Shown: piece by piece, positions 10,270 to 49,175 of the stretch
How the letters are laid out: each line of letters begins with the position of its first letter
Numbering within the stretch: the stretch's first letter is position 1
DNA from: Tetraselmis striata
Taxonomy: Eukaryota > Chlorophyta > Chlorodendrophyceae > Chlorodendrales > Chlorodendraceae
Reading direction: 5' to 3'
Length of the DNA: 64,000 nt
Assembly: GCA_006384855.1 (NCBI GenBank)
Contig: VCJN01001730.1
Location: 310,001-374,000 of the forward strand
The notes under the pieces: model-generated
Database searches by the model: none
The model's input: only the letters and a program-made list of their open reading frames with translations
Told to the model about the DNA's origin: nothing
Position numbers and translations under genes: made by a program

Positions 10270-11874
10270 CTACACCTCGGCCTCCCTGCTGCTTGTGCTG
10301 GGGCTATCTGGTATGGATTTGCTAAGTTCCAGAACAACTGGCTGGGGGTCAGCCTCAGCCTCAGCTTTAGGCGTGTCTGCATGCTCTGTTGGTTTGACCT
10401 CATTCTCCTTCGCCGACTTTGGCACAAATGGCCCTTTGCGCAACAAACCAAAGAACATAATATACAGAATTGCTGCCGCAAGGAGGAAGATGCCCATCAC
10501 CGTGAAGGCATTTGGAGCACCAATGGAATCCTGAAGAGCGCCAAATATTAGGGGGGCTGTAAGGCCTGCAGCGCCCTTAAAGGATGTCATGATGGAGAAG
10601 ATGCCCCCTGCCAGCCCGTCAGAGTTGCAGAAAGCAATTGGTAGAGTGTCCATGAGCGGGGTGCACCCGTAGGTGATGCCAAATGCCAATGCGAACACGA
10701 TCACGTTGAGCGCCAGGCTGGTCGAGCTTGTAAATACCACGGTCACCATGGCCACCAGGAATACAGCAGTGCCGTACAGGCCGGTGCCATACCAGAACCG
10801 ATGTGCAGGTAACCGCCTGAGCAGCTGTCCAGTGAGTAGAGAACCAAGCACGCTCGCAATGGAGGAGGATGTCAACAGAAAGTTAGCGCGACTCTGCTGC
10901 TGGTTGCTGTCGCCCAAGGGGTTGTAATGCTGCAAGTAATCGTAGTAGATGAGGGGTCCAAACTGAGTGCCGGCCATTATCAGCTGCTGGAACATGAATG
11001 CCATGAAGCCGAGGTACCAAGTCCTCCACCACTTCAGCGCCGCATTCATGTTCTTTGGCTTGCCCGGCCCCGCCGTGGTCTTTTTCGCAGCAACAAGCGC
11101 GTCACGTTCGTCTTCATTGAAGACCTTGGTTGTCTCCGGGGAATCCATCATGCAGAACCAGGTCATGACTGCCGCCACGGCGCAGTAGATTCCGTACACC
11201 AGGTACACGTAGCGCCAGCCAGCCAACATGATGATTCCGGCCAACGGGCCAAAGAAGATGCCGCCCACTGTGTTTGTCACGTACACCACGCTCCAGCTAC
11301 CAGAGGTCTCTGAGGCTGTGAGGTGCTTGTCCATATTGCGGTACAGGATCGGCTGGACGCAAGCCTGGGTCGCGCCGACGGCCATGTTGCAGAGTGCAAG
11401 ACTCCAGAAATTGGGCAGCCCGGACTTGAGGATGGTAAGGCCGCCCATCGCCAGTAGGTTAAACGACAGCCAGCGGCGCTCGCCGACCTTGGTGGCGATG
11501 TACAGGCTTGGATACTGAAGTGTCGAGAATGTCAGGAAAAAGGCGCTTAACACCAGGCCGAACTGAGAGCTACTCATTCCAAGCGCTTGCGATTGCGGCG
11601 CTGCGACAGCCGAGGTCGCGAGCTTTGACAGCATGTTGGCCCACATTACCGGAACGGTGTGGAGGAGCAACGCCTTCTTCGACTTGCGAAGCGCGTCATT
11701 CAAATGCGACGGGCCGTCACGGCCCTCCTCGGCAGCAATCTCTGAATCGTCCGCGTCTGCTGGAAGCTGACTGGACCGACTCCCCGAGAGGACGGCAAGA
11801 TCGGCTTCTTGGTCGAGTGACACTTCGACGAAACTCGGGGCCGAACCGGCCTCGGCGCCTGCCGGACTCTCCAT
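10270..11874 (-). CDS. major facilitator superfamily transporter, ACS-like
   Basis: A single uninterrupted frame of 534 codons, unusual here because neighbouring genes are intron-rich. After a roughly 70-residue acidic, Ser-rich cytosolic N-terminus come about 12 hydrophobic segments. Family features are visible: a loop after TM2 with GERRWLSF, WRYVYLVYGIY around TM6, and a central hydrophilic loop beginning DSPETTKVFNEDERDAL. The pattern DSP...F..DER.A after TM6 resembles the anion:cation symporter group (allantoate/nicotinate permease-like and NPT-like proteins). The C-terminal 60 residues are hydrophilic. The likely role is H+- or Na+-coupled import of an organic or inorganic anion; the substrate cannot be read from sequence. 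The start at 11874 is the first ATG of the frame and gives a full-length MFS protein. Confidence 0.85.
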   Translation of the reverse strand: MESPAGAEAGSAPSFVEVSLDQEADLAVLSGSRSSQLPADADDSEIAAEEGRDGPSHLNDALRKSKKALLLHTVPVMWANMLSKLATSAVAAPQSQALGMSSSQFGLVLSAFFLTFSTLQYPSLYIATKVGERRWLSFNLLAMGGLTILKSGLPNFWSLALCNMAVGATQACVQPILYRNMDKHLTASETSGSWSVVYVTNTVGGIFFGPLAGIIMLAGWRYVYLVYGIYCAVAAVMTWFCMMDSPETTKVFNEDERDALVAAKKTTAGPGKPKNMNAALKWWRTWYLGFMAFMFQQLIMAGTQFGPLIYYDYLQHYNPLGDSNQQQSRANFLLTSSSIASVLGSLLTGQLLRRLPAHRFWYGTGLYGTAVFLVAMVTVVFTSSTSLALNVIVFALAFGITYGCTPLMDTLPIAFCNSDGLAGGIFSIMTSFKGAAGLTAPLIFGALQDSIGAPNAFTVMGIFLLAAAILYIMFFGLLRKGPFVPKSAKENEVKPTEHADTPKAEAEADPQPVVLELSKSIPDSPSTSSREAEV

Positions 11875-12104
11875 CTCGCAGGTCGACAGACCACGGATCC
11901 GGTCGGGACTGGTGGCAGAGGGAAGTTGCTGCTGCTGTCGTTAGTGGTCGGGGCAGCGCCGGGAACGCGAGGCTGTTCACCGGTATGCTGGGGCCAAACC
12001 CTGGGTGGTCGGAGTGGTGGTGGTGTGTGCTGTTCGTCGACGTCGAGTTTACATGGTCGTCCACTCACGCCGGTATTTATCCTGCCGCTATTGCCTTCTG
12101 CCAG

Positions 12105-12495: not shown

Positions 12496-12681
12496 TGATC
12501 TAAACTAGTTTATGGGGTTTCCATCCTTGACCTAACCGCTTTTCGGCTACAAGTGCTGCGCAGTGGTACGGGAACTAGTAACTGTTGTTGCGCCCTTGTT
12601 GGGTGCAGCACGAGTAGACATAAAAGCAGCCAGAACAGCTGAGCCTGCCATCTTCCAGTTTTCGCTGCGTTCCACGCAGCG
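12496..12681 (+). repeat. A1 terminal direct repeat
   Basis: It begins TGATCTAAACTAGTTTATGG and ends TTCCACGCAGCG, and matches A2 base for base by eye over 186 bp. It contains a CATAAAAG TATA-like box, so it can serve as the element promoter. A small inverted motif CGCTGCGTTCCACGCAGCG lies at its 3' end. Confidence 0.9.
12619..12626 (+). promoter_or_regulatory. TATA-like box in the A repeat
   Basis: CATAAAAG lies about 170 bp before the ORF1 ATG. The same box is present in A2 (about 15535-15542). Transcription started here would run through both ORFs and into A2. Confidence 0.35.
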
Positions 12682-12794
12682 ATGTAAAAACTGTCTCGTA
12701 ACCCGTTGCGAGCAAGGTCACCCCAGGTTGTTCAAGACCACACCCGGCTCGCCATCCGAGTGTGATATTCTCGTCCGTACGTCCGTGCGTTACT

Positions 12795-13670
12795 ATGTCA
12801 GATGGAGAAGAACCCGTCGCTGAGCCGACGTTGGAGTCGCTGAACGCAGATATGAGGGCACAGTCTTCATTACTGCGAGAGCTGGCTACAGCTGTGGCGC
12901 AATTGACGGTTCGTGATCGCGTTGTTGATGGAGAAGGAGCACATGGCTCCGGCTCAGGGCAGCGTTTCGCGAGACAGCCGACAGGCAGCGGGGGAGCCGC
13001 AGAGCGCCCCGACTTGCTAGAGCTAGCCCAGAGCGGCCGTGTCGGAGCAAAATCCGTGAGTGCCGAGGATGATTACCTCGCGGTGCCAGAGCTACTGCAG
13101 AGAGCAGAGTCTGGTTACGAGGCCGTTCGACCGGTCAGCCGAGTGCCTGGACTTTTCCCCTTGAGCACCGACCTAACGAACGAGTACCTCAAGCAGGATG
13201 ACCGGCGTCTGCCGGCCCAGGAGGAGTACTTGTGGATGTCGTGTTTCGGGGCTCACATGGCCGCCCTTTTCGTGGCGCTCGACGAGCTACTGCCCTACGT
13301 CCCTACCAGCAACCAGGACTTCACCCCCTACCTCGCGAGAGCCCGGAATCACGCCGAGGCCATCGACAAGGCGTTTCGGTTTCGTTTGGCCTTCCTACGG
13401 AAGCTCAATGAGATCAAGCGTGTGCACGGTGACCAGGGTGTTCTGGACGTGCTGCGAGCCCAGCATTTTCAGCCTGCTTCGGAGCATCTGGGTTCCGCGA
13501 TTTTTGGGGACCTCATGCGGGACTACGAGCGTCGTGTCTTCGAGGCGACCGTTGCCAGCAGCGCCAAGGCGACCGCTACTTCTCGAGTGGCGGCTGCAGT
13601 TGCAGGTCGCGGGCGTGGGCGAGGACGTGGCGGCGGACGTGGACGTGGCCGCGAAGGTGAGCACGAGTGA
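12795..13670 (+). CDS. ORF1 of the YR element, Gag-like protein
   Basis: The 291-residue ORF begins at the first ATG in frame (MSDGEEP). It has a short N-terminal helix that could be a coiled coil (residues about 12-40), a disordered Gly/Ser-rich linker, and a helical core (about 85-260) containing LFPLSTDLTNEYLKQ and the WMSCFGAHMAALF segment. The C-terminus is RG-rich (GRGRGRGGGRGRGRE), typical of RNA binding. The position before the YR gene and the RG tail fit a DIRS-type Gag, but no zinc knuckle is present and the assignment rests on context. The stop is TGA, and the same frame continues open into the YR ORF. Confidence 0.6.
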   Translation: MSDGEEPVAEPTLESLNADMRAQSSLLRELATAVAQLTVRDRVVDGEGAHGSGSGQRFARQPTGSGGAAERPDLLELAQSGRVGAKSVSAEDDYLAVPELLQRAESGYEAVRPVSRVPGLFPLSTDLTNEYLKQDDRRLPAQEEYLWMSCFGAHMAALFVALDELLPYVPTSNQDFTPYLARARNHAEAIDKAFRFRLAFLRKLNEIKRVHGDQGVLDVLRAQHFQPASEHLGSAIFGDLMRDYERRVFEATVASSAKATATSRVAAAVAGRGRGRGRGGGRGRGREGEHE

Positions 13671-13883
13671 CGGTGTGGGGCGCCGTTCGTCGGAGCTGCA
13701 GGAGCCTTGCGAGGTCACCTTTCGGTGACCGCCGCAAGACGCACCCTTGCAGCTCAACGGCGGGATGAGCGCCCTGTGTCAGGACCTGACCCCCCCACCT
13801 TACAGACTTCATTTAGACCTTCCTCGGTGCGGCGCTTCTTACAGCTACAGCCGAGTGCGGCTCAACCATCCGCACACCTGCAC

Positions 13884-15332
13884 ATGGCGGCTCAACCATC
13901 CGCCTTTCGTACAACCCCACCTTTGCGTTCGTCGGTTGTTACACTACGAGTTACAACCGGTTCGCAACGACCAAGTTTCGCGCGTGTACGTTACGCACGG
14001 GACAGGCGCTACGAGCGCGAAGGGCGCGCGGGGCGGCCCTCCTACCTGAACCTAGCCCCGCAAACCCGTACCGAAGCTACTGCAAACCCGTCCAGCAACT
14101 ACCGGCCAACCGCCGGGAACCTAACCGCTGCTGCCGAGTACTTTGCGAACAGTGGCCGTGCCGGTGGCACTCTGTCAGTAAAACGACGCACTTACGAAAT
14201 CGACGAGCCCGCAGCTATCGCTCCGTGGGCTGCGTCACTGCGATCCCGACTACAGGACGCGTTCGGCTCAGACGAGCTAGGCCAGCGGACGCTCGACCTG
14301 CTCTCCAGCTCCCTCAGCGCTCAGACCCTCAAGAGCTACGCCGGCAGACTGTCTCAGTTCGCTGAGTTCTGCCACGACTCCGAGAACATCAGCCCGCTAG
14401 AGGCGACTACTGCTACTGTTGTTCGGTACGTTGCCTGGATCGGGGAGCGAGGGCACATCGCAGCTAAGTCGCTGCAACCCTACCTGTCTGCAATCAACAC
14501 CTTCTTCGAGCTGCACAACCTCGTCCCGATCGCCAAGGACAGCCTACACCTCACTTCGGCAAGGCGTGGGTTAATGTTGCGGCAGCGCCGACTGGACGCT
14601 GCCCCCTTGCGTGTCCCTCTGCCTGCGGATGTAGCTTACCGCTTCGTCTCAAAGGCCGAGCTAATTGTGTCTGCTCCTTACCCAGAGTCCCACCTCGACT
14701 ACCGAGCCCTCTTGGCCTCGGTTGTCAACTTCCTGTTCTTTGCCAGGGGCCTTACTGGCGTCTCCTGTCGAGCGCAAGATGTGCATGTCGACACCTACAA
14801 CATCACCTTGCAAATCTACCGCGAGAAGGGTCGCGCTGGCCGTCGGGGACCCGACGACCTGCGCGTACTTCTCCTTCCAGTGTCCGAGCACCCTCGAGTG
14901 GCACGACTCTTGCGGTACTTCATCGACAACGTCCAGTCTGTCCCCCTGGTTACTGTTGGCTTGGCTGCCTCCAACTTCTGGGCTGTCAATGTGGCTGAGC
15001 AGTCAAAACCTTGGACTGCGGCTACGATGTCAGACTGGTTGTCTACAGCGGTCAACCTAGTCAACGCTGCCCCTCCTGCTGGCACTTCCTGGACTTCCCA
15101 CAGTCTACGTAAGGGCGCAGCCTCTGCAGCAAACGCCATCGGAGCGCCACTGTCCCACATCCGCTACCAAGGCGGTTGGGCCACTAACTCCGATGTCGTT
15201 CTGGACTACATCGACCCCAACGTTCTTCCTTCTCCTGGCGCGTGGTTCTTCTTTGGACACATCGCCCCCCTCCGCCACTTCCAAGTCCAACAGGACTCCG
15301 CAGCGGTGGCCTTCCCAGTGCCTCCTTCATGA
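13884..15332 (+). CDS. tyrosine recombinase of the split-repeat element
   Basis: The frame is open from just after the ORF1 TGA (13671) to TGA at 15330-15332. The first in-frame ATG is at 13884, giving 482 residues. The N-terminal 130 or so residues are Ser/Arg/Pro-rich. A SAM-like core-binding domain follows (LSAQTLKSYAGRLSQFAEFC, then YVAWIGERG and the YLSAINTFFELHN helix). The catalytic domain has FLFFARGLTG (probable box I Arg, residue 288), REKGR (Lys 315, beta-hairpin), HSLRKG (His 406, Arg 409), GGW (Trp 432 in the second His/Trp position) and VVLDYIDP (nucleophile Tyr 442). All catalytic positions are present, so the enzyme looks active. Expression could be by TGA readthrough from ORF1 (about 845 codons in total) or by internal initiation. 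It would catalyse integration of a circular intermediate. Confidence 0.85.
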   Translation: MAAQPSAFRTTPPLRSSVVTLRVTTGSQRPSFARVRYARDRRYEREGRAGRPSYLNLAPQTRTEATANPSSNYRPTAGNLTAAAEYFANSGRAGGTLSVKRRTYEIDEPAAIAPWAASLRSRLQDAFGSDELGQRTLDLLSSSLSAQTLKSYAGRLSQFAEFCHDSENISPLEATTATVVRYVAWIGERGHIAAKSLQPYLSAINTFFELHNLVPIAKDSLHLTSARRGLMLRQRRLDAAPLRVPLPADVAYRFVSKAELIVSAPYPESHLDYRALLASVVNFLFFARGLTGVSCRAQDVHVDTYNITLQIYREKGRAGRRGPDDLRVLLLPVSEHPRVARLLRYFIDNVQSVPLVTVGLAASNFWAVNVAEQSKPWTAATMSDWLSTAVNLVNAAPPAGTSWTSHSLRKGAASAANAIGAPLSHIRYQGGWATNSDVVLDYIDPNVLPSPGAWFFFGHIAPLRHFQVQQDSAAVAFPVPPS

Positions 15333-15385
15333 CTTGGCGCTACCCCTTCTCCGTCAATCCACCGCTCTCTACGTTCGCTCAAGAC

Positions 15386-15411
15386 TGGCAAAACCAGACT
15401 CAACTTTGAAA
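15386..15411 (+). repeat. B1 internal direct repeat
   Basis: A 26-bp sequence beginning TGGCAAAACCAGACTCAACT, identical to B2, placed directly before A2 with no gap. Confidence 0.9.
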
Positions 15412-15597
15412 TGATCTAAACTAGTTTATGGGGTTTCCATCCTTGACCTAACCGCTTTTCGGCTACAAGTGCTGCGCAGTGGTACGGGAACTAGTAACTG
15501 TTGTTGCGCCCTTGTTGGGTGCAGCACGAGTAGACATAAAAGCAGCCAGAACAGCTGAGCCTGCCATCTTCCAGTTTTCGCTGCGTTCCACGCAGCG
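15412..15597 (+). repeat. A2 internal direct repeat
   Basis: The 186-bp copy of A1 starts at the base after B1. Similarity to A1 stops sharply after CGCAGCG. Confidence 0.9.
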
Positions 15598-15665
15598 CCC
15601 CCCCTGACTCCGTTTTCCCTCCACGCTTTTCGCTAAACCTTCCTGCCAATTTCGGCTCTTGACCG

Positions 15666-15670
15666 TGTAA
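15666..15670 (+). promoter_or_regulatory. TGTAA poly(A) signal in the A2-B2 spacer
   Basis: TGTAA lies in the 93-bp spacer between A2 and B2. A transcript started in A1 and ended here would carry the A sequence at both ends, apart from whatever lies before the start site, as expected for an element replicated through RNA. Confidence 0.4.
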
Positions 15671-15690
15671 AACAGCCTGCGCGACCTTTT

Positions 15691-15716
15691 TGGCAAAACC
15701 AGACTCAACTTTGAAA
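15691..15716 (+). repeat. B2 terminal direct repeat, right end of the element
   Basis: A 26-bp sequence identical to B1. Beyond it the sequence (CGCAGCAATCG) has no counterpart after B1, which fixes the right boundary at 15716. Confidence 0.88.
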
Positions 15717-15955: not shown

Positions 15956-16149
15956 CTGGATTGCTGCCTAAACGGCCGTCGTAGAGACGCTGCAAGGGTT
16001 TCACTGGTGCCAGTCCGGTCCCGGGAGCGAAAAAAAAACGCTGGCAGCGCGAACACGGACTTTTTTTTCGCCCCCGGACTGGACAGGACTGGTAACAGTG
16101 AAACCCTTGCAGCGTCGTCTCTACGACGGCCGTTTAGGCAGCAGTCCAG
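15956..16149. repeat. 194-bp fold-back inverted repeat with 22-nt loop
   Basis: The left arm (15956-16038: CTGGA, TGCTGCCTAAACGGCCGTCG, TAGAGACG, CTGCAAGGGTTTCACTG, CCAGTCC, CGGGAGCGAAAAAAAA) is the near reverse complement of 16061-16149. The arms differ by a 3-nt and a 5-nt insertion and a few mismatches. An A8 run at the left arm tip pairs with a T8 run at the right. No ORF lies inside. It may be a fold-back MITE or a small-RNA hairpin; the sequence alone does not decide. Confidence 0.85.
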
Positions 16150-31334: not shown

Positions 31335-33344
31335 ATGGCTCTCACGTCCACAGTCTCCATGCGTTCTGCGCCGCCGCAGAGGAAGGCGGGCTCCCCAGCG
31401 GCCAGGTACGAGCGAGTGCAGCTGCCCAACGGGCGGCGTCCCCCTGGCCAAGAAGCGCACCGTAGCGGTGCCTCGCCAAGCTCCCCGCACGCACGCGTAT
31501 CAGCTCCCGGTGTTAGCTTCTAGAGCTACTGGAGTGATACACAATGCCGCGCATCACAGCAGCGAAAGCGACTGGCCACGCCGTAGTTTTGTCGCCATCA
31601 TCAGCTGCCCTCCCCGCACTGGTGTTGCGCAGCGGGCTCTCCCGGCCTGCACGGCAGTGCTAGGTCCCGAAGCATGCACCTTGCGCCCCACCGCCATTGG
31701 CAGGCTGTGTGCTGCCCTGGGTGGCGCTGAGGCCTGCAGGCCCTCATTGCCTGGCACACCCTCTCACCAACTGCCACGCCCGCTCCTCCCACCCACCCCT
31801 GCTGTTGTATGCAGGCTGTCCAAGGGGCCGGCCGCGTACGTGGGCTTCGCCAAAGCAGGTGCGGCGCATGCCACGCTGCCTTAGCCCCCCCTCCTCTCCC
31901 TTGTGACAGCCAGCGCTTTTTCCCCCGTCCACCGCCATGATCGCGCTTCATGCTGAGACTGTTGTTCCCCGCCCTGTGTAGAGCGCCTCCCCACGAAAGG
32001 GCAGCCCAAGGATTTCTGGGCCCTCACCCAGGGCGTGGTGGCTAGCCAAAGGTCAGCGCCCGAGCTCAATTCCCCTAGCTGCGCACTACCCATCGTACAG
32101 CTTAGCCAGGCTTGGCGTGTGCTGACACTTTCCGGCCTAATCGTTGCTGGCCCAATCCCCCGCAGGTCCTCCTCTGGCCCCACACGGCAGGTGACCCGCA
32201 TGATGCCCATTGGCGTGCCTCGGGTACCATACCGCAGCCCCAAGGAGGGTGGCTGGCAGTGGGTGGACATCTGGAACTGCCTGGTGACCCAACTCCCCTC
32301 CAGACACCTTGTATACCCTCACCATGTCCTGGTGCTGCTGCTGCTGCTGCTCCTCTTGCTCAATCCTAACGTGCCCCCACCCACCCATATTTCCCTTCAT
32401 TCCTTCACCCCCCTCACCAAACTCGTCCTGCAGTACCGTGAGCGCATCATCTTCCTGACAAAGGCGCTCGACGAGGAGCTGGGCAACCAGCTCGTGGGCA
32501 CCATGCTCTACCTGGATTCGGAGAACAAGAAGGACATGCAGCTGTACATCAACTGCGCCGGCGGCGAGGTGGACCTCCTGGCCCACCGCCTCCCATGTCC
32601 GCTCGCATGCGCTGCCCCCGTTGGCTCCCTGCCTACGTGCGTCACTGGCTTTGAGCACAGCGCTGCTGCCGCTGCAGGTGGTGCCCTCCCTGGCGCTGCA
32701 CGACACCATGAGGCACATCGGCAGCGACGTGGCCACCGTTGGCTTTGGCGGTGCGATGGGCATGAGCGGCTTCCTGCTCGCCGTTGGCAAGAAGGTGGCA
32801 CGCCCCGCCTGTCCCTATCCCTCTCCCCCCCTGCCACCACATGGACTGCTCCCGCAGGGCTCTCAGGCTCTTCCTCTCACCCCCCCCCCCCCCCCCCCAC
32901 CCTCTCTTTGCCCCTCTTTACCCTCCAGGGCAAGCGTTACTCTCTACCCAACACCCGCATCATGATGCATCACCCCAGCGGCGCAGCTCGCGGGCAGGCC
33001 AGCGACATCCAGAACGAGGCCCGGGAGCTCGTGCGCGTCCGTGACTACACCAACTCCATCCTGGCCCAGGCCACAGGCAAGCCGGCCGACCGGGTGCGCC
33101 CCCCAAACCCCCCCCCCCCCCCCCCCCCCCTCCCTCCACCCCACCCCTTTGCCCCACCTTCGTCTGGACAGCTCGGCTCGGCTGACCAGCAAGATTGGTG
33201 CCGGACCGGCCTGGCCATGTGCAGATTGCGCGGGACTTCAACCGCAACTGCTGGTTCAACACCAAGGAGGCGCAGGAGTATGGCCTGATCGACACCATCA
33301 TCCGCCCCGCGCGCACCGCCATCCTCACGGGCATAGAGGAGTAA
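31335..33344 (+). CDS. CLPR2: ClpR subunit of the plastid Clp protease (ClpR2-like), 8 exons
   Basis: Non-catalytic ClpP paralogue of the chloroplast Clp core. Exons: 31335-31405, 31815-31858, 31982-32051, 32166-32283, 32434-32568, 32678-32794, 32929-33093, 33225-33344, phase-consistent, giving 279 residues. The N-terminus [19 protein letters not shown] is transit-peptide-like. [20 protein letters not shown] precedes the fold and is the block I associate with ClpR2. ClpP-fold landmarks: [67 protein letters not shown] and [11 protein letters not shown]. The serine position (GQAAS in ClpP) is Gly174 in GGAMGM, His199 is kept in RIMMH, and the aspartate position is Asn248, so the triad is broken as in ClpR proteins. 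The R2 assignment is less certain than ClpR itself. Confidence 0.92.
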
Positions 33345-36525: not shown

Positions 36526-37437
36526 CGTGCAGCGCCGAACGTGGAGGCTGCTGGGAGCGGGGATGGCAGCCCGGGCAGGCCGTGTTCGCGCCGAAGCGGC
36601 AGGACGGCAGCGGCGTGCGAGCGAACGAGCGAGCGTGCGCGCGTCCCTAACTAACCGGTGACGTGCTCCAGGCTGAGCAGGTGCTGCTCGCCCAACAGCC
36701 TAGCAGGCTAGAGCTGGTGGGGCTGAGCAGAGAGCGTACACTCCGAGATGGCGTGAGCCGGCAGCAGGCGTTATCTGGTTCTGTGGGCGCGCGACGACGC
36801 GTACGATGGTTTCGGCGTGACGCGACAATCGACCGGCGAGTGTCAGGAAGACGTACGTAGATCCGCCCGCAGACGGTCTGTGTGGGCGGCCCTGAGCTGT
36901 GTTCTTTGTCGTGCAGAGGAGACGGGAGCCCGGGAGGTAATCACGACGAGCAGAAAGGCTTTTATGTGTGCTGTGAGAGTCAGGCATGCCCAACAACCGC
37001 CCTACAGGTACTTCGTACGGGGTTCCGCCTACGGATTTGTCGCTACTGTACCGATTCATACCGCACACACACGTGCTCGCGTGGCCCGGACTCTGAACCG
37101 TGTGCGCATCACTCATCCATCCCGCCTTATGCGCGGGATGCGGGCCGCTTTTAGGCGGCTTGCTGTGTTGATTTTCTAATTCTGGGGAACTGCCATTTTT
37201 GTAATTCACACCGATTCATACCAGGAGTAATTACGCTTGTTATTATTCTAAATAATCTGGTAAAGCCGGCGACATGTAATCCTCAGCGAGTACACACGTA
37301 CCGCCCGCGCCGCCGCCAGTAGTAGTCGTAGTAGTACAGGTGTACACTCTCCCACAAGATGCCCTACACGAACATGCATGTAGGCGCGGCATCGCTGCGC
37401 AGTAGCATATAGCCAAACCACGTATAGTCATGAGTCT
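36526..37437. other. upstream region of RP2, no gene supported
   Basis: It contains overlapping frames on both strands at about 36700-37210 with no recognisable domain. TTTTTGTAATTCACACC near 37192 recurs at about 1347, a small trace of a shared repeat. Confidence 0.4.
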
Positions 37438-47214: not shown

Positions 47215-49175
47215 TGGCGTCGACCAGCCGAGTGACTGTCCGGGGGCTGCGAAAGCGACCGGGGCATAGGACGCAGCGGCGGGCCAATGGCGCTGGCCTA
47301 CTGCATGCGCAGGCCGCGGATGCGACCGGGGGCGCAGGGTGCAGTGACGGCATGATGGGGCCGACCAGCTGAGTGCAAAGGCCGCGAAGGCGGATGGGGC
47401 ACATGGCGCAAGGTTGCTCTGTCGACGCGGCGAAAGCGGCCAGAGCATAGGGACGGTGCAGAGGCGGTCTGACGCCGCCAACCAGCTGCATGCCCGAGGC
47501 TGCGACAGCGGCTGAGGCACAGCGCGCAGCGGCGGCCCGTTTGCGCCGACCAGCTGCGTTCCCGGGCCGTGGAAGCGACCGGGGCGAAGGGTGCACTGAC
47601 GGCGCGTTGGCCCCGACTAGCTTCGAGCGCATGACGCGGAGGCGACTGGGGCGCATGGTGCAAGGACGGCCAGACGGCGCCGACCAGCCGCGTGCCCGGG
47701 TCGCGAAAGCGGCGAGGGAACAAGGTGCAGAGGTGTTAAGATGGCGCCGACCAGCTGCGTGCCGAGGCGCTGCGGCAGCAACTAACCGAGGTAGAGCGGG
47801 CAGCGGCGGCCCGTTGGTGCCGACCAGCTGGACGTCCGGGCCGCGGAGGCGACCGGGGCGAAGGGTGCACTGAGGGTGCGTTGGCCCCGACCAGTTGCGA
47901 GCGCATGACGCGGAGGCGACCGGGGCGCATGGTGCAGTGACGATATGACGACGCCGACCAGCCGCATGCCCGGGTCGCGGAAGCGACCAAGAACAAGGGG
48001 GCATTGGCGGTCAGATACGGCGCCGACTAGCTGCTTGCTTAGGTCGCGGAGGCAACCAGGAGGCACATGGTGCATGGGCGGCCCGTTGGCGCCAACCTAC
48101 TGCGTGCCCATGCCGTGAAAGCCGCCGGGCCGCATGATGTAGTGGCGGCATGCATGATGGATCCGGCAAGCCGCGTGTCCGGTCTGTGGAGGTGACCGGG
48201 GCACATGGTGCAGAGACGGTCTGACGCCGCCAACCAGCTGCGTGCCCCGGGCCGCGGAAATAACGGGGGCATAGCGTGCAGCGGCGGCCCGTTGGCGCCG
48301 ACCAGCTGCGTTCCCGGGCCGCGGAAGCGACCGGGGCGAAGGGTGCACTGACGGCGCATAGGCCCCGACCAGCTGCGAGCGCATGACGTGGAGGCGACCG
48401 GGGCGCATGGCGCAGGGAAGGCCAAATGGCTTCGACCAGTTGCGTGCCCAAGTCGCAAAAGCGGTTGGGGAACATTGGGTGCATCGGCGGTCAGATGGCG
48501 CCGACCAACTTCTTGCCCGAGGCTGCGATAGCAACCGAGGCACAACGTGCAGCGGCGGCCCGTTTGGGCCCGTTTGCGCCGACCACCTATAGGCCTAGGC
48601 CACGAAGCGACCGGAGCGAAGGGTGCACTAACGGCGCATTGGCCCCGACCAGCTGCGAGCGCAGGCCGCGGAAGCGACCGGGGCGCATGGTCCCGTGACG
48701 GTATGACGGCGCCGACCCGCCGCGTGCCTGGGTTGCGGAAGCGACCAGGGAACAAGGTGCAGTGGCAACCAGATGGCGCCGACCAGCTCCGTGCCCGAGG
48801 CTGCGGCAGCAACCGAGGCACCGCGTGCAGCGGCGGCCCTTTGGCGCCAACCAGATGCGTGCCCGGGCCGCGGAGGCGACCGGGCACATGATGCAGTGAC
48901 GGGTGCTGATCAGTTGCGTGCGTAGGCAGCGAAAGCGACTGGGGCACATGGTGCAATGGCGGCATGATGGTGCCGACCAACTACGTGTCCGGGGCTGCGA
49001 AGACAATCGAAGCAAAACGTGCAGCGACGGCCCGTTGGCGCCGGCCAGCTCCGTGCTTAGGTCGCGGAGGCAACCGGGAGGCACATGATGCATGGGCGGG
49101 CTGATAGCGCCGACTAGCGCGGGTGCCCGGAGGCGGCATATAGTGGTGGCCGGTTGGCGCCGACCATCTGTGTTC
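47215..49175. repeat. satellite array, about 67-bp unit, with higher-order repeat of about 272 bp
   Basis: Units contain GCGCCGACCAGCTGCGTGCC, a GGGCCGCGGAAGCGACCGGG block, and GGTGCA-TGACGG. Successive GACCAG/GACTAG anchors lie at 47548, 47615, 47682, 47749, 47822, 47889, 47956 and 48025, so spacing is 67-73 bp. Every fourth unit is most alike: the series GCGTTCCCGGGCC, GCGAGCGCATGACGC, CGCGTGCCCGGGTCGCG, CTGCGTGCCGAGG recurs at about 47548, 47822 and 48300. This is a higher-order repeat. Three very long minus-strand frames here (to 337 codons) are products of the GC-rich repeat and are not called as genes. Confidence 0.85.

Follow-up and report, generated by a model that had tools for sequence, protein, structure and literature searches.

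A reverse-transcriptase-free tyrosine recombinase element of Tetraselmis striata as the probable half of a bipartite PAT-like retrotransposon

Results

Structure and coding capacity of the element

We analysed a stretch of 64,000 nucleotides from the genome of the green alga Tetraselmis striata (contig VCJN01001730.1 of assembly GCA_006384855.1, positions 310,001 to 374,000), which is called the window in the following. The species is borne out by near-identical gene models that carry the name Tetstr1. It carries a transposable element of about 3,220 bp that encodes a tyrosine recombinase (YR) and in which no reverse transcriptase (RT) was detected by Pfam and tblastn. An earlier note, made from the letters of the window, had described identical split repeats, an exact joint between B1 and A2 and two open reading frames (ORFs) in between, all of which we reproduced (Table 1). 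In the window the two A repeats agree over 186 nt and the two B repeats over 26 nt (100% each), and the last base of B1 directly precedes the first base of A2. The order A1-B1-A2-B2 is that of the PAT/TOC3 YR retrotransposons. Together with the forward orientation of the recombinase ORF it confirms the note's assignment to YR elements with PAT-type split repeats. The B1-A2 joint represents a preformed copy of the junction that a circle is expected to have. The start of the A repeat (A-start) reads ...TCTAAACTAGTTTATG..., and a TATA-like CATAAAAG is found at about A position 124 of A1.

Table 1. Coordinates of the element and of two empty insertion sites in the window.
Feature	Position	Strand	Basis
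A1 repeat, left end	12496..12681	+	repeat comparison
ORF1, 291 aa, Gag-like, C-terminus rich in Arg/Gly	12795..13670	+	frame and similarity to uPAT1 Gag-like ORF
ORF2, tyrosine recombinase, 482 aa from first Met	13884..15332	+	Pfam, Cre relatives
B1 repeat	15386..15411	+	repeat comparison
A2 repeat	15412..15597	+	repeat comparison
Spacer, A2 to B2	15598..15690	+	sequence
B2 repeat, right end	15691..15716	+	repeat comparison
Empty site for L009	556..557	.	200 nt joined flanks, 99% identity, exact
Empty site for L015, in dispersed repeat	37172..37173	.	93% over 100 nt, exact

Two intact frames of 322 aa (12702-13670) and 553 aa (13671-15332) lie between the repeats. ORF1 starts at the methionine at 12795 (291 aa), and the frame of ORF2, open from 13671, has its first methionine at 13884. 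Pfam returned recombinase domains alone for ORF2 (PF02899, 6e-8; PF00589, 0.0015) and nothing credible for ORF1. In a phmmer comparison the C-terminal part of ORF2 matched Cre (E 0.0018) such that the positions H..R, GGW and Y were paired, which we take to be catalytic in Cre. A structure model of moderate confidence (predicted local distance difference test, pLDDT, 64) suggests the same relationship, the top PDB match being Cre (E 3.5e-7, template modelling score, TM, 0.39). Cre was also matched by a profile built from a protein alignment (best 6.7e-10); RT matches of this profile stem from RT-bearing rows of the alignment. The uninterrupted 482-aa ORF2 with its Cre-like recombinase domains bears out the earlier reading of an intact recombinase. 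For the GCR1_C-type C-terminal domain, a feature of CryptonF elements, no Pfam match was obtained in the element at E<=1.

ORF1 had been proposed to be a Gag-like protein. Its first 230 residues align to the Gag-like ORF of uPAT1, a complete relative in the same genome (see below), with a Smith-Waterman score of 86 (best of 500 shuffles 54, z 10.4). Comparisons with the Gag-like ORFs of the second complete relative uPAT2 (z 1.2) and of a PAT family with a 696-aa RT frame (z 2.3) were unconvincing. ORF1 is probably Gag-like, the similarity being strong against uPAT1 alone. No zinc knuckle was found in ORF1 by Pfam. Across 21 copies, the ratio of nonsynonymous to synonymous polymorphism (pN/pS) was 0.20 for ORF1 (15 nonsynonymous, 26 synonymous variants) and 0.21 for ORF2 (29 nonsynonymous including 2 stops, 51 synonymous).

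An RT gene between the repeats, which the note had considered as a counter-argument to its own reading, was found neither by tblastn with the protein of the RT family described below (E<=1) nor by Pfam, which also returned no RNase H and no Dam-like methyltransferase in the element. Since RT was looked for and not found, we regard the element as a PAT-derived component rather than a PAT element.

Copy number and age of the family

The genome-wide search for further copies that the note had proposed was carried out on the 224-Mb assembly (2,903 contigs), with the best or first approximately 40 to 150 places listed per search. With the whole element as query (37 of 3,246 first-look candidates scored), 39 of the 41 listed rows were full or near-full copies of 96-100% identity, the window's own included. 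The flanks differed among the 21 copies inspected. All 78 matches listed for ORF2 in tblastn (78 of 7,756 candidates scored) were at least 98% identical and 74 were free of stops, which supports the recent movement that the note had deduced.

To estimate the abundance of the ends we located the A-start (27 nt, up to 2 mismatches), which occurs at 2,863 places genome-wide; the reversed control occurred at none. Of the places listed, the first 100 (exact matches throughout, on contigs C1-C181) comprised 28 same-strand pairs 2,876-2,949 bp apart and 44 single places. Taken at face value, this pair fraction suggests as a rough figure about 800 full copies. The remaining same-strand spacings below 12 kb were 968, 8,812, 8,827, 10,980 and 11,537 bp. 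Among six inspected single A-starts, three were B-A ends of diverged relatives (81-90%), two were A1 starts with a 5' coding region and one was a disrupted A. The pairs, the near-identical copies and the inspected singles together indicate that multiplication takes place in the short RT-less form. The family, termed YR-only in the following, is young, intact and of high copy number.

The wide A-start spacings (C110:60231-69069, C165:100445-109298, C29:84503-96066 and C135:73331-84337) may correspond to nested, neighbouring or longer elements; at C165 two of the three A-starts form an ordinary 2,917-bp pair. In the public T. striata gene set, transposon proteins appear as the large clusters P0003, P0077 and P0121 (92, 67 and 77 members), and some of the clustered gene models are apparently spliced into ORF1-YR products. 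Outside T. striata the sole close YR among 120 listed was P0014, 90% identical and located on a 5.8-kb contig of the Joint Genome Institute (JGI). Two scans of viral contigs returned no relatives of the element.

Indications of copying through RNA

The two A repeats allow to ask how a copy was made. In 30 YR-only copies (copy C40b with a disrupted A2 was excluded) A1 and A2 of the same copy differed at 0.63 positions on average. Between copies the mean was 4.07, and a value as low as the first did not arise in 20,000 permutations. The perfect identity described in the note for the window copy does not extend to every copy. Variants restricted to a single copy were present in both A1 and A2 in 15 cases and in one repeat only in 17; the window copy carries a G at A position 50 in A1 and A2 alike. 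Such sharing of private variants would be expected if each transposition rebuilt one A from the other, as the models for PAT and DIRS elements propose. The concordance points to reverse transcription over DNA-only movement, and the RT-free DNA circle that the note had offered as an alternative is disfavoured.

A family with RT and matched ends

A genome search with PF00078 gave 150 matches, many with frames of about 1,540 aa that presumably belong to long terminal repeat (LTR) elements. After this search a DIRS-type RT probe was chosen, for which 152 genome matches were found (150 of 2,258 candidates scored). One match from a family with 763-aa frames (L037) turned out to be a 3,049-bp element with split repeats of its own (A' repeats of 179 nt at 100% identity, B' repeats of about 27 nt). 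Its single 763-aa ORF contains RVT_1 and RT_RNaseH domains according to Pfam, shows a weak Dam match below cut-off (E 0.0069) and has a stop codon that adjoins B1 of this element. Homology to YR or ORF1 was not found in it at E<=1. We refer to this family as RT-only. The note had suggested a search for longer, RT-bearing relatives that share the A/B repeats; the best-matching RT family is another element of about 3 kb, without a detected Gag or YR.

The RT-only family is also young and numerous. In the copy search (39 of 1,279 candidates scored) 38 of 44 listed rows spanned at least 2,980 of the 3,049 positions. Its A-start occurs 475 times genome-wide (control 0), and among the first 100 listed 30 of 33 spacings below 12 kb were 2,683-2,802 bp, the others being 3,073, 3,437 and 9,500 bp. 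The 763-aa frame was kept in 8 of 11 copies, a sample that deliberately included the most diverged ones, and pN/pS was 0.38 (100 nonsynonymous variants including 7 stops, 86 synonymous; 11 copies).

We compared the ends of the families, centred on the preformed B-A joint and using 2,000 shuffles. YR-only and RT-only share 24 of 27 nt of the A-start (first 28 nt: z 12.1, 0/2,000 shuffles) and resemble each other over the 26 nt of B (z 5.5, 1/2,000). Beyond A position 28 there is no similarity (z -0.8). Against uPAT1, uPAT2 and the 696-aa PAT family, in this order, the YR-only A-start agrees at 10, 11 and 8 of 27 positions (A z 1.0, 1.9, 3.5; B z 0.7, 2.8, 0.5), and the RT-only A-start at 11, 12 and 5 (A z 0.9, 1.2, 2.4; B z 0.5, 4.7, -0.4).

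Both uPAT1 and uPAT2 unite a Gag-like ORF, RT-RNase H and YR in one element. The uPAT1 copies (L078-L081) are about 4.9 kb long and 95-97% alike, many others having stops, and the L078 copy is interrupted inside the YR by later insertions. The young, complete and PAT/TOC3-like uPAT2 is 4.9 kb long, with two copies (L082, L083) that are 99.65% alike. The RTs of uPAT1 and uPAT2 are 57% and 61% identical to the RT-only protein, and their YRs 37% and 39% identical to YR-only ORF2. The Gag-like protein and YR of the one short family plus the RT of the other thus jointly equal the gene set of the complete relatives. In the 696-aa PAT family, L036 (C1633:36492-43492) has a CCHC Gag, the 696-aa RT frame with a Dam match that passes the cut-off and, further downstream, a YR-like ORF to which Pfam assigned no domain; its ends are dissimilar to those of the YR-only/RT-only pair. 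A YR is also part of several RT gene models from Tetraselmis and of one, P0238, from Cymbomonas tetramitiformis. In phylogenetic trees weak support (82/80) was obtained for a group of the partner RT, the P0196/P0142 family and three RTs from metagenomes; the nearest complete relative of the YR was not resolved by these trees.

Several further observations concern these families. L036 is a complete PAT element that belongs to a different clade, and copies with a 696-aa frame are numerous in the genome. The RT and YR of uPAT2 share a single frame of 1,265 aa in one copy and fall into frames of 849 and 1,096 aa in another. A second RT-only family had been considered for the 849-aa P0196/P0142 frames. 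It was rejected after one such copy had been compared with a 1,265-aa copy, since both turned out to be the complete 4.9-kb element, the YR lying in a different frame. In P0130, a Tetraselmis gene model of 783 aa, a truncated YR-element protein (first part) is fused to the C-terminal portion of that of the RT-only element; it is probably a gene model spanning neighbouring elements, a composite element being the alternative. Two of 39 listed RT-only copies lie less than 500 bp from one of the 78 listed YR-only copies, compared to 0.014 expected under uniform placement, indicating that neighbouring insertions do occur. In these pairs, at C2868:35122-41616 and C634:30884-37394, the two copies are oppositely oriented, with distances of 226 and 264 bp.

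Insertion sites and target preference

Nine comparisons of flanks with candidate empty sites were considered. Four were clean and revealed precise insertion, with neither a target duplication nor a lost base. Two of the four empty sites lie in the window (Table 1); the others were obtained by comparing the flanks of L010 with L013 and those of L013 with L020. Five comparisons were left out due to gaps across the junction (L010/L020, L024/L020, L016/L015), gaps nearby (L024/L013) or a one-sided match (L011/L020).

The flanks of 31 YR-only copies have T at position -2 in 25 cases, where the background frequency of T in the window is 0.207, and A (15), T (10) or C (6) at -1. Position +1 is T in 17, C in 11 and G in 1 (n=29, excluding the right flanks of C24 and C40b, in which the right end was not found). 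RT-only flanks show T at -2 in 10/11 and a pyrimidine at +1 in 11/11. The target preference as a proof of a shared recombinase was dropped, since copies of the complete families show the same flank pattern. The YR-only copy L010 and the RT-only copy C2044 are inserted at the same nucleotide and in the same orientation, in copies of one dispersed repeat (between GAGGATA and TGCTG). An unoccupied copy of this repeat is present at L013. This dispersed repeat was hit repeatedly (L010, L013, L020, L024, L052/L053), and the YR-only copy L024 is apparently located at the same base in opposite orientation, with gaps beside the junction.

Discussion

The predicted proteins and the matched ends suggest that the element is probably one half of a bipartite PAT-like retrotransposon, namely the half with Gag and integrase. 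The YR-only and the RT-only family would complement one another in trans. A further step is that the two form an obligate two-segment retrotransposon, i.e. separately inserted and replicating, equally short families held together only by shared YR recognition ends; for this the balance tips just slightly to the positive side. The note had proposed that the element borrows RT in trans. An external origin of the RT is indeed probable, the likely donor being the RT-only family with its matched ends. Half of a two-element system is a better description of the element than a TOC1-like non-autonomous derivative.

A cycle can be outlined along the models for PAT and DIRS elements. Transcription would start inside A1, where the TATA-like box lies, and run to the right end. 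The RT-RNase H of the RT-only family would copy the YR-only RNA, with ORF1 serving as packaging protein. The B1-A2 junction would then template the missing part of A and close a circle with a B-A joint, a step with which the A1/A2 concordance is consistent. The YR would bind this joint and recombine it between T[A/T] and [C/T] of the target without duplication, in keeping with the precise insertions. The same YR may integrate circles of complementary DNA (cDNA) of the RT-only family, whose ends match. Neither family would move alone, as each would need the enzymes of the other.

The PAT/TOC3 YR retrotransposons of green algae are described, in the parts of the sources considered, with split direct repeats, a forward YR, a Gag-like ORF without detected zinc finger and no target duplication (PMC4157794, PMC3266345). 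The element shares the arrangement A1-[ORFs]-B1A2-B2, the forward YR and the lack of a target duplication, its ORF1 is a putative counterpart of the Gag-like ORF, and its complete relatives uPAT1 and uPAT2 reside in the same genome. It differs in that RT, RNase H and methyltransferase were not found in it and are assigned, the methyltransferase by a weak match, to a separate element with matched ends. TOC1 of Chlamydomonas, presumably a short non-autonomous relative of complete TOC-type elements with split repeats, is similar in being such a short relative, whereas here the Gag-like ORF and the YR are intact with a pN/pS of about 0.2.

A functional analogy may be Drosophila HeT-A, an RT-less and Gag-encoding element believed to depend on Pol from a different family; TART and TAHRE each encode a Pol of their own, and the system is non-LTR and telomeric (PMC5537684, in part). 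Here as well an RT-less element with a putative Gag exists beside an RT family, with matched ends, and RT would be supplied in trans. The difference is that integrase and RT reside in reciprocal elements, neither being complete, while in the Drosophila system neither an integrase nor a shared end recognition is divided. The RT of the RT-only family is moreover of DIRS type with split repeats, and not of the non-LTR (LINE-type) kind as in HeT-A/TART. VIPER is a trypanosome YR retrotransposon with split direct repeats and SIRE a short fragment that matches the A2-B2 region of VIPER (PMC6681497, in part). The likeness lies in the YR, the split direct repeats and the short form; a reciprocal enzyme split is not described in the part of the source considered (PMC6681497). 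Cryptons, DNA elements with a YR domain only (PMC4157794, in part), resemble the element in having a YR without RT, and differ from it by its split repeats, Gag-like ORF and signs of reverse transcription. The literature considered also included PMC8226300 and PMC13269885. We recognised no reciprocal RT/YR split in the literature on YR/DIRS and complementing retrotransposons, judged by titles and the starts of abstracts, with most subscription papers outside this survey, and found no literature that links Tetraselmis with DIRS and tyrosine recombinase.

Both families could be independent deletion derivatives of one autonomous element with the same ends, RT and YR. This parent would be scarce, extinct or missing from the assembly, and the two families would then be parasites rather than partners. 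Related complete families exist in uPAT1 and uPAT2, sibling derivatives would retain matched ends, and P0130 contains parts of both families. We nevertheless consider such an origin unlikely. A class of 4.5-6 kb A-start spacings is missing from the first 100 listed per family, the YR-only spacings of 968 bp and 8.8-11.5 kb remaining. No relationship between the sequences is seen apart from the terminal ~27 nt, a result not expected from two recent deletions in a common parent, and both halves are young with a pN/pS of 0.2-0.4, a constraint that parasites would not need.

There is little reason to favour a loan of RT from uPAT1, uPAT2 or the 696-aa PAT family, with the RT-only family being incidental. 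The YR-only A-start agrees with these complete families at only 8-11 of 27 positions versus 24 of 27 with RT-only, even though the genome offers 152 matches to the DIRS-type RT probe, uPAT2 is young and intact, and the RT-only B resembles that of uPAT2. ORF1 resembles the Gag-like protein of uPAT1, yet many uPAT1 copies have stops. Very improbable is a Crypton-type DNA element, in which the YR would excise and insert a DNA circle without RT, although the encoded YR, the lack of a detected RT and the precise insertions would suit it. Split repeats with concordant private A1/A2 variants suggest that one was copied from the other, simple cut-and-paste leaves thousands of ends unexplained, and a matched RT-only family and a Gag-like ORF1 exist. 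An assembly duplication, named in the note as a possible source of A1/A2, or a single deleted copy is practically refuted by the 39 full or near-full copies, the different flanks of the 21 inspected ones and the four empty sites.

A number of points weigh against complementing halves. All support comes from sequence, and the activity of the enzymes is predicted. Beyond the first 100 A-starts listed per family there may be an autonomous element with exactly these ends, and a few wider spacings leave room for it. P0130 unites sequence of the YR and the RT element. The B repeat of RT-only is also similar to that of uPAT2 (z 4.7, 3/2,000), and the young complete uPAT2 could lend RT or YR. Since uPAT1 and uPAT2 agree at 20/27 of the A-start (z 5.2) despite each having its own YR, end similarity alone is no proof of a shared recombinase. 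Copies of the complete families also have T at -2 (4/5) and a pyrimidine at +1 (5/5). A profile comparison of ORF1 with Gag proteins gave a weak match. The A1/A2 concordance could also originate from gene conversion, and for the RT-only family it is weaker (1.64 differences within versus 2.63 between copies, 5/20,000 permutations), with 2 single-copy variants in both repeats and 16 in one.

If the proposed complementation is true, the essential enzymes of a retrotransposon can be divided between two mutually dependent families that, by rough extrapolation, reach hundreds of copies. Such a system would be a transposon counterpart of a multipartite virus. It would allow tests of how cis-preference can be overcome, of how recognition of the ends enforces a partnership and of how multipartite replication evolves outside viruses. 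Elements scored as non-autonomous for a missing RT may be functional halves, such that annotation pipelines should seek partners via shared ends. The end classes within this one genome (the YR-only/RT-only pair, uPAT1 with uPAT2, and the 696-aa PAT family) provide a natural panel for site recognition by YRs.

Other features of the window

About 240 bp to the right of B2 a foldback (15956-16149) consists of three nested inverted repeats with arms of 34, 36 and 17 nt. Foldback-like sequence is also found in the flanks of L015, L017 and L019 and looks like a dispersed repeat similar to foldback elements or miniature inverted-repeat transposable elements (MITEs). An ORF of the major facilitator type lies on the opposite strand at 10270-11940, about 560 bp to the left of A1, and an ORF with a Clp protease domain at 31957-33288. 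A degenerate minisatellite with a 67-bp unit (24.6 copies, 63% matches) occupies 47455-49130 and overlaps two long frames on the minus strand (339 and 313 aa), for which Pfam gave no match.

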